64,000 bases of DNA, taken from assembly GCA_012838225.1 (NCBI GenBank), contig DUPT01000042.1, positions 1 through 64,000 of the forward strand, given 5' to 3'. The translations under genes were made by a program, and so were the position numbers. Positions 47,711-62,256 of this stretch are shown piece after piece. The notes below the pieces were generated by a model that did not search any database, was not told the origin of the DNA, and saw nothing but the letters and a program-made list of their open reading frames with translations. Position 1 is the first letter of the stretch; the number at the start of each line of letters is the position of its first letter. This stretch comes from Tissierellia bacterium. GTDB taxonomy: Bacteria > Bacillota > Clostridia > Peptostreptococcales > Acidaminobacteraceae.

Positions 47711-47734
47711 AAAAAATCCATCGAGAGATGGATC
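47711..47734 (-). terminator. Expression-platform terminator of the TPP riboswitch
   Basis: On the minus strand GATCCATC-TCTC-GATGGATTTTTT directly follows the aptamer and precedes the thiT ribosome site. It is a typical transcription terminator controlled by the aptamer. Confidence 0.85.
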
Positions 47735-47808
47735 GACTTCCCTACGCCGGCATAATCCGGATCAGGTGATAAGGGTATCTCTCAGCCAAAGGGCACCCCC
47801 AGCAGCTT
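47735..47808 (-). ncRNA. TPP riboswitch (THI box)
   Basis: The minus strand carries the conserved GGGGTGCCC, CTGAGA, ACCCTT, ACCTGATCCGGATTATGCC and CGTAGGGAAGT elements in order, separated normally for the TPP aptamer. It begins just after the csaA stop, so transcripts may come from upstream. It regulates thiT. Confidence 0.95.
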
Positions 47809-47812
47809 TAGT

Positions 47813-60149: not shown

Positions 60150-60728
60150 CTACCTATCTAGAAAATAACTCTTGATCAGGGCCAGTGATTCGCGGACATA
60201 GGACTTGATCACGATCACTCCGGGCGTCTTGGCCGCCAGGAGGATCGGTTCGAGCCCTTGGCGCTTGGCCAGCAGACTCGCCCGGTAGAGATGATAGCCG
60301 CTGGTGGCGATGGCCACCCGGCGACTGTCGCCGGCTTGTCGAATCAGTTGGGCACTATAGAGAAAATTTTCAAATGTATTTTTTGAGGCTGCTTCCAGCA
60401 CGATCCTGGTCTTGTCTATACCCTTTTCTTCGAGCCACTCTCCCATCGCCTGCGCCTCGCTGATCGATTCATCATCGCCCCGGCCACCGGAGCAGATGGC
60501 GATCGTTTGCGGGTGCTTCTCCAGATAGTCGAGGGCTGTCTCCAGGCGATACTCAAGGGCCAGCTTTGGCTTGTCACCATCGAGCTGAGCCCCCAGGATG
60601 ATGACATAGTCCGCCGGTCGATCGGACTCATCAATCCGGTGAGCCGAAAAGATCAGTCCCTGCGTCAGGCCAAGGACGATCAGACCGATGACCAGCAGGC
60701 CGATGAAAAGGCGCTTAAGGGCGCTCAT
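60150..60728 (-). CDS. YdcF/SanA-like DUF218 membrane protein
   Basis: 192 residues. N-terminal membrane helix (LFIGLLVIGLIVLGLTQGL), then DUF218 domain with DYVIILGAQLDGDKPKLALEYR, AICSGGRGDDESISEA, EAASKNTFENF and ATSGYHLYRA. The family is linked to envelope integrity and vancomycin sensitivity in E. coli SanA; biochemical function unknown. ATG 60728 overlaps the mgtE stop by four bases (ATGA). Confidence 0.9.
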   Translation of the reverse strand: MSALKRLFIGLLVIGLIVLGLTQGLIFSAHRIDESDRPADYVIILGAQLDGDKPKLALEYRLETALDYLEKHPQTIAICSGGRGDDESISEAQAMGEWLEEKGIDKTRIVLEAASKNTFENFLYSAQLIRQAGDSRRVAIATSGYHLYRASLLAKRQGLEPILLAAKTPGVIVIKSYVRESLALIKSYFLDR

Positions 60729-62059
60729 AGCAGCAGCGGCAGGAAGGCTTTGGCCAGGCCCAGAAAAGCCAGAAAACCAAACACATCCGTCAGAGCCGTC
60801 AAGAAGATGCTCGATGAAACGGCCGGATCGATCTTAAGGTGCTCCAGGACCAGCGGGATCAAAAAGCCGAACAGACAGGCGATCAGCTGATTGATGATCA
60901 TGGCCAACAGGATGATCAGTCCCAGATAATAGTTGCCGCTAAAGATCCCGAGCACCAGGCCGGCGATCGAGCCGATGGCCAGGCCCTGAAGCACCCCCAT
61001 CAGCGACTGCTTAAAGATATAATGCCAATCGTCCTCAAGACTGATCTCGCCCAGTGCCAGCGCTCGGATGATGACCGAGAGCGTCTGTGAGCCGGCATTG
61101 CCACCCAGGCCGGCCACGACCGGCATGGCGGCCGCCAAAATGACCACCTGCTCGATGACATCAGAAAAGCTTGCCACGACAAAAGCGGCCAGGGAAGCCG
61201 TCAACAGATTTAGCAACAGCCAGGGCAGACGACGCTTGAGCGAGGCGGCGATCGGTGAATCATACGTCTCGTCGGCACTGACCCCCGAGATCTGCAAAAA
61301 GTCCTCGGTCTGCTCTTCGACAATGACATCGACGATGTCATCGATCGTGATGATGCCCAGGATCGCCCCGCGCCGATTGACGACCGGAATGGCGTTCAGG
61401 TCGTATTTCGACACGATCAGCGACACCTCTTCTTGGTCCTCGTCCGGATACACGGAGATGAAATTGGTATCCATGATATCCTCGAGCACCGTGCCCTCCG
61501 GTTCGGCCAGGATATCGCGCAGGTCGGCGGTGCCGAGCAGTTCGTTTTTGGCATTGACGATATAGAGTGTTTCAATGATCTCGGTCTTGGGACCGATCTG
61601 CTTGATCTTTTGCAGGGCCTGACCGGTATCATAGCTGGAGCGAAGCGAGATATATCGGGTCGTCATGATCCCGCCGGCCGAACGCTCATCATAGCCCAGC
61701 AGCATCTTCAGCTGCTGCGACTCACTGGCCTTCATCAGATCGAGGATGTCTTTTTTTCGTCCCTCGGGCAGCTCCCCCAAAATGTCGGCGATATCGTCCG
61801 AGTCCATGAGCGAGAAGACCTCGACCGCCTGTCTGGGCTCCCACATCTCGACGATCTCGATCTGGAGCTCTTCACTGGCTTGTTCGAGTAGAAGCGCCAG
61901 CTCCTCGACGCTGAGCAGGCTGATGAGGGCTTCCAGTTCATCATCGTATTCCTCCATCGCCAAGGCGATGTCGATCGGGTGGACGCGCTGAAAGAGCTCG
62001 GTCATCGCCCCCGGATCACTAATCTGCAGTAACTGTTCTAAGATTTCCTTGAGTTCCAT
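60725..62059 (-). CDS. mgtE: Magnesium transporter MgtE
   Basis: 444 residues: MgtE N-domain (about 1-125, superhelical), two CBS domains (about 130-255, magnesium sensing), connecting helix and five membrane helices (about 275-444) with GGNAGSQTLSV in the second and NQLIACLFGFLIP, forming the pore. Imports Mg2+. The ATG 62059 follows AGGAGACACG. Its leader contains a 12-residue ORF and alternative hairpins, suggesting translational control. Order mgtE-ydcF-spxH-DUF2500 is one operon. Confidence 0.96.
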   Translation of the reverse strand: MELKEILEQLLQISDPGAMTELFQRVHPIDIALAMEEYDDELEALISLLSVEELALLLEQASEELQIEIVEMWEPRQAVEVFSLMDSDDIADILGELPEGRKKDILDLMKASESQQLKMLLGYDERSAGGIMTTRYISLRSSYDTGQALQKIKQIGPKTEIIETLYIVNAKNELLGTADLRDILAEPEGTVLEDIMDTNFISVYPDEDQEEVSLIVSKYDLNAIPVVNRRGAILGIITIDDIVDVIVEEQTEDFLQISGVSADETYDSPIAASLKRRLPWLLLNLLTASLAAFVVASFSDVIEQVVILAAAMPVVAGLGGNAGSQTLSVIIRALALGEISLEDDWHYIFKQSLMGVLQGLAIGSIAGLVLGIFSGNYYLGLIILLAMIINQLIACLFGFLIPLVLEHLKIDPAVSSSIFLTALTDVFGFLAFLGLAKAFLPLLL

Positions 62060-62114
62060 CGTGTCTCCTACTATCAGCTCATAGACACGGCGCACCAAGG
62101 CCATGGTATGAGCT
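62060..62114 (-). promoter_or_regulatory. Alternative hairpins in the mgtE leader
   Basis: Stem A: AGCTCATA (62107-62114) with TATGAGCT (62076-62083), eight pairs on the minus strand. Stem B: CGTGTC (62084-62089) with GACACG (62060-62065), which places the mgtE Shine-Dalgarno (62065-62069) inside its fold and could extend through TAT/ATA pairs that stem A also uses. The stop codon of the leader ORF (62113-62115) overlaps the 5' arm of stem A. The pairs are seen; the switch is inference. Confidence 0.55.
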
Positions 62115-62151
62115 AGCGACTAGGTCCCTGAGGACCGCTGGCAGCTTCCAT
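62113..62151 (-). CDS. mgtE leader peptide (12 residues)
   Basis: ATG 62151 with AAAGGAG eight bases upstream encodes MEAASGPQGPSR then TAG. It sits in the untranslated leader 54 bases upstream of mgtE. It contains two Pro codons in a PQGP setting plus an internal GGTCC/GGACC hairpin. Small upstream peptides (MgtL, CorL) control magnesium transporter genes in enterobacteria; resemblance is functional analogy only. Confidence 0.6.
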   Translation of the reverse strand: MEAASGPQGPSR

Positions 62152-62184
62152 CGGACTGTCTCCTTTAGAGTATTTCTATTTCAA

Positions 62185-62213
62185 ACTTTAACAGTCGCTT
62201 CCCCCAAGGTCAA
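62185..62213 (-). promoter_or_regulatory. mgtE promoter
   Basis: Minus strand: TTGACC (62208-62213), 17 bases, TAAAGT (62185-62190). Transcript would start near 62178, about 120 bases before mgtE. A long inverted repeat (AACAGTCGC 62190-62198 with GCGACTGTT 62229-62237) surrounds it and could serve as the ftsH terminator. Confidence 0.65.
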
Positions 62214-62256
62214 GTGAATCCGGGGTCGGCGACTGTTTTTGATGGTCGTATTTATG

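Follow-up and report, generated by a model that had tools for sequence, protein, structure and literature searches.

In enterobacteria, the leader peptide MgtL of mgtA carries an early EPDP motif; at low Mg2+ ribosomes drop off, the RNA refolds and mgtA is switched ON (PMC11282234). The M-box riboswitch (RF00380) of mgtE/ykoK is read by an aptamer, and in Mycobacterium tuberculosis an M-box controls a uORF that is joined to Mg2+ control of the downstream gene (PMC12810186). A structured mgtE 5' region with the SD and AUG within a stem, the mgtE motif, is described as a strong riboswitch candidate, not as a uORF, and is reported from Thioalkalivibrio only (PMC11109978).

Here we analyzed the leader of an mgtE gene in a 64,000-nucleotide stretch of DNA from a Tissierellia bacterium (contig DUPT01000042.1, positions 1 to 64,000, below called the window). 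An earlier sequence-only reading had proposed that this leader follows the logic of known magnesium-transporter leaders with a different sequence, and our folding of the leader with a ribosome placed on it agrees. Like MgtL, it has a short ORF before a Mg2+ importer gene, an acidic residue at position 2 and an early proline, and full translation is predicted to give OFF and an early stop or pause ON. It appears MgtL-like in action but is not an MgtL, since gene, peptide, phylum and output all differ: the MgtL transporter is an enterobacterial P-type ATPase and the window encodes MgtE in another phylum, the EPDP motif stands against MEAASGPQGPSR with an early GPQ (no sequence relation is claimed), and Rho-dependent termination stands against a predicted burial of the mgtE start, with no intrinsic terminator called. 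Nor is the element an M-box, although it shares the gene and presumably the signal with that riboswitch; it would be read by the ribosome, and M-boxes are absent from both the window leader and that of its congener. The mycobacterial arrangement differs by its M-box in the same way, and the mgtE motif, which we set apart by its description and not by its sequence, by being classed as a riboswitch candidate and not as a uORF.

Organization of the mgtE leader

The leader element, found between ftsH and mgtE (Table 1), is on the minus strand throughout; the strand had been left unstated in the sequence-only reading. The leader (62151-62060) reads AAAGGAG-8-ATG GAA GCT GCC AGC GGT CCT CAG GGA CCT AGT CGC TAG, and a linker of 53 nt follows up to the mgtE ATG. 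A conserved short ORF with its own ribosome site is found 5' of mgtE, as in leader-peptide translational attenuators in general. The promoter-like sequence is matched in the congener by TTGACC-17-TACAGT at the corresponding position. Transcription is predicted to start at about 62178, and the uORF would therefore be the first translated element.

Table 1. Features of the mgtE leader region and its surroundings in the window.
Feature	Position	Strand	Remarks
mgtE	60725..62059	minus	Pfam MgtE_N, CBS and MgtE domains; start ATG 62059
Stem B, predicted sequester hairpin	62047..62100	minus	-18.5 kcal/mol
mgtE ribosome site TAGGAG	62065..62070	minus	conserved in congener
Stem A, predicted anti-sequester hairpin	62075..62115	minus	-19.5 kcal/mol
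Leader ORF, 12 codons	62113..62151	minus	MEAASGPQGPSR, then stop
Leader-ORF ribosome site AAAGGAG	62160..62166	minus	duplex with anti-SD -8.8 kcal/mol; kept in congener
Promoter-like TTGACC-17-TAAAGT, extended -10 (TGT)	62185..62213	minus	consensus match only
Inverted repeat AACAGTCGC (62237-62229) / GCGACTGTT (62198-62190)	62190..62237	minus	read from the sequence; flanks -35 box
ftsH	62257 upwards		upstream side of leader region
TPP riboswitch (RF00059)	47722-47810	minus	

The core of the inverted repeat, CAGTCGC...GCGACTG, is retained in the congener despite the different upstream gene there, and the repeat, which flanks the -35 box, is a possible operator for some regulator. An in-frame ATG at 62104 was considered as the mgtE start and ruled out; the start is placed at 62059, because in the congener a stop codon lies a few codons 5' of the matching mgtE start. 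The start regions of the leader ORF (62151-62166, GGAGACAGTCCGATGGAAGCT) and of mgtE (62059-62070, GGAGACACGATGGAACT) look alike, and by this resemblance a weak pairing of GUGUCU with the leader ORF's own ribosome site is also possible.

Among 41 genomes of the family, the leader is present in one congener only (G001, locus L004), and no such uORF was seen as an orthologous leader in the other genera. Apart from a 61% copy in G017 (L005), mgtE proteins elsewhere in the family reach no more than 40% identity, and their leaders are different. The G017 copy, the closest mgtE from another genus of the family, is missing the N-terminal 100 codons and adjoins an apparent transposase-type sequence. 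A second mgtE in the same genome as the window (L101 580-660; G000 contig C19) is preceded by a GTG-start uORF, M(V)EIPPCRTCGKTGSSCVGHLIRPIAN and stop, with the SD AAAGGAG and a TTTTTTT run after the stop codon; despite the uORF, footprint folding of this leader revealed no switch.

The sequence-only reading had named a lack of conservation of ORF and stems as the outcome that would count against it. Both are kept in the congener, which retains promoter, SD, 12-codon ORF, the two stems and the mgtE SD, with a different gene upstream of mgtE. The congener ORF, MEAGNGPQAACR and stop, is identical in length and free of indels, and the two ORFs differ at 10 of 39 nt, distributed 2/3/5 over the codon positions. 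GPQ is common to both peptides, with changed third bases in the Gly6 and Pro7 codons.

Two exclusive hairpins and the position of the ribosome

In the sequence-only reading, the 12-residue ORF with its strong ribosome site ends exactly at the 5' arm of stem A. We find the same: that arm has the leader stop codon TAG (62115-62113) at its base. Not one of 1000 dinucleotide shuffles matched the stability of stem A in the window (z -4.2), and the same was seen for the congener (-21.8 kcal/mol, 0/1000 as stable). In the congener 5' arm most positions between GCUC and AUGG are altered, and the difference between the species is a register shift rather than clean compensatory pairs; with a single congener available for comparison, direct covariation evidence for the two stems is sparse. 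The core of stem B pairs CGUGUCU (62089-62083) with AGACACG (62066-62060), the latter arm overlapping the mgtE SD (TAGGAG) and reaching the AUG, and its outer pairs extend into mgtE codons 1-5. These core pairs are invariant in the congener. Compared with shuffles, stem B is only moderately better (27/500 as stable in the window, 16/500 in the congener). The two stems share the segment 62100-62075 and are mutually exclusive. Total folding stability of the 151-nt leader was not unusual (z -0.48) and was dropped as evidence; the unusual feature is the switch, not the overall stability of the leader.

To follow this switch, the leader was folded with a ribosome-sized stretch forced unpaired at each codon (footprint folding). 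As long as the P-site lay within codons 1-8 (MEAASGPQ in the window), the probability of stem A was 0.93-1.00 in both species, and the mgtE start could be opened at a cost of 2.2-4.5 kcal/mol in the window and 3.4-4.1 kcal/mol in the congener. Stem B dominated once the P-site was at codon 9 or beyond, up to the stop, and the opening cost was then 6-10 and 5-10 kcal/mol, respectively. With the footprint at the leader stop, stem A was lost and stem B reached a probability of 1.00, which bears out the proposal that a ribosome at this position blocks stem A and frees the segment for stem B. That stem B folds over the mgtE ribosome site was likewise borne out, with an opening cost of about 10 kcal/mol in window and congener, up from about 2-4. 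When the linker alone was shuffled, none of 400 sequences in either species was as switch-like as the native one. The switch held when footprint and transcript ends were varied in 20 combinations, the boundary shifting by one to three codons, although the early-codon values of the congener were uneven at one tested transcript length. In the calculations, the leader thus adopts two exclusive structures, one of which buries the mgtE ribosome site, and the position of the ribosome chooses between them.

The behaviour of the ribosome-free RNA was less uniform. Early release had been expected to let stem A form and to open mgtE. At equilibrium this applies to the window, where the free RNA is in the stem A/ON state. 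In the congener, where stem B is favoured (0.87), the outcome is ambiguous, and for the majority of the distant leaders described below the free RNA is OFF. The state common to both species and to most distant leaders is an early-held ribosome that opens mgtE. Since this, and not release, is the shared ON state, pausing is the more general reading.

The absence of a visible M-box was confirmed, as neither RF00380 nor any other Rfam family matched the window leader, even with a permissive search, and no covariance-model match to the M-box was found in the congener locus. A pattern scan of the coding strand called no intrinsic terminator in the window leader or in that of the congener. Stem A of the window is not followed by a run of U (GATAGTAGG). 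In the congener U7 lies two bases past stem A, and could add a terminator function there.

Putative leader peptides upstream of other clostridial mgtE genes

Relatives of mgtE were gathered across the order, the class and selected families, and 86 leaders were scanned by one rule. Among ATG uORFs with a strong SD, 28 of 31 in mgtE leaders start with M[DE], as compared to 11 of 149 elsewhere in the same loci; with near-identical peptides collapsed, the counts were 16/19 vs. 11/143 (Fisher p 2e-12). Beyond the genus, strong-site uORFs of this kind occur in 26 more mgtE leaders, drawn from five families and typically starting MDSGP, MDSDP, MESGP, MESVPP or MDPSPE. In ten M[DE]SxP leaders the serine is encoded by TCA, TCT, TCG, TCC or AGC, i.e. 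from both codon boxes, and the proline by CCT, CCG or CCC. The peptide is thus under selection, because serine and proline are kept via different codons. A genome-wide search with the RBS-start pattern of the uORF of one family (f51) gave 12 matches, of which 4 precede mgtE with a full uORF and the rest resemble chance matches.

In footprint folding of 17 leaders from other genera, the mgtE start was more open with an early-codon ribosome than with a mid-ORF ribosome or none, and against linker shuffles the combined p was ~5e-11, a value that ignores kinship. Little or no such opening was seen in L045 and L046 (family f10) or in L066 and L076. In L045/L046 the uORF-start GGAGACAG can pair with CTGTCTCC, and CTCCTTCAA, which overlaps, with TTGAAGGAG, the mgtE ribosome site; this design of competing pairs is unlike that of the window leader. 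The window leader fits the larger set, with a strong-SD M[DE] uORF 5' of mgtE and an early-codon ribosome that opens the mgtE start. Common descent of the M[DE]-start leaders is not claimed, and some could be convergent.

Eight of the leaders (L050, L053, L063, L064, L065, L070, L071 and L074) have an M-box just upstream of the M[DE] uORF and mgtE. This ties the mgtE gene set to Mg2+, and an M-box and a uORF on one transcript may provide tandem Mg2+ control. A search of the open-access literature gave no description of leader peptides for clostridial mgtE, so that the novelty of such a family is provisional.

Discussion

Our results suggest that the mgtE leader is probably a translational leader-peptide attenuator, in which the position of the ribosome on the 12-codon ORF selects stem A or stem B. 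The switch architecture is well supported computationally. From the identity of the gene, the M-box/uORF tandems and the MgtL analogy we infer a link to Mg2+, which would be sensed by pausing or drop-off at acidic and proline codons. At low Mg2+ ribosomes would pause on, or leave, the early acidic/Gly-Pro codons, so that stem A stays and more of the MgtE importer is made; with ample Mg2+ they would reach the stop, stem A would be melted and stem B would trap the mgtE start. We likewise infer that the leader is translated in vivo and that pausing or drop-off at low Mg2+ results in higher MgtE. By the standard of MgtL the window peptide is weaker: Glu2 is its single acidic residue and its proline is isolated, with only Glu2 and Gly-Pro at 6-7 to set beside EPDP, and the MDSDP, MDPSPE and MESVPP starts elsewhere come closer.

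The same anatomy could serve a different signal, namely the general state of translation (charged tRNA-Pro/-Gly, EF-P activity or free ribosomes), with mgtE following via the link of ribosome stability to Mg2+ demand. Footprint folding is silent on the cause of ribosome slowing, proline is common at positions 3-8 in the wider set, and in Salmonella EF-P is reported to control mgtA translation via proline codons (PMC6460261). We nevertheless regard this signal as unlikely, as the acid at position 2 is kept more strictly than proline in the survey, leaders such as MDGDSHGR and MECDGHSC have no proline, and M-boxes stand on the same genes in eight leaders.

Much less probable is a switch of RNA only, whose stems sense Mg2+, temperature or a protein while the ORF is incidental or merely keeps ribosomes loaded. 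The near-isoenergetic stems (-19.5 vs. -18.5 kcal/mol) would be expected of a directly sensed switch. Against it stand an ORF that keeps its length, start, stop, SD and GPQ via synonymous changes, a stem A that begins at the leader stop codon, conservation at the peptide level across families and the lack of a match to any riboswitch family. There is also a very slight chance that stem A or access of Rho decides on completion of the transcript, as in mgtA. MgtL does work through Rho (PMC11282234), and the U7 of the congener is suitably placed; against this, the window lacks a U run, no coding-strand terminator was called in either leader, and in both species the mgtE SD and AUG are buried in stem B.

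Returning to the ribosome-read attenuator, the element belongs to a wider group of clostridial M[DE]..P mgtE leader peptides, which stand alone, as in the window, or behind an M-box. That clostridia carry widespread, so far undescribed Mg2+-sensing M[DE]-x-x-P leader peptides in these two arrangements, which set mgtE translation through the position of the ribosome, a convergent counterpart of MgtL with the ribosome as the sensor, is a proposal to which we give about even chances. If it is true, the use of the Mg2+ dependence of the ribosome as a sensor recurs in a distant phylum, with another transporter and another output, and the tandems of M-box and leader peptide would let one ask why the cell reads Mg2+ twice per transcript. 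The varied short peptides with their common start would then be material for finding the nascent residues that make ribosomes Mg2+-sensitive.
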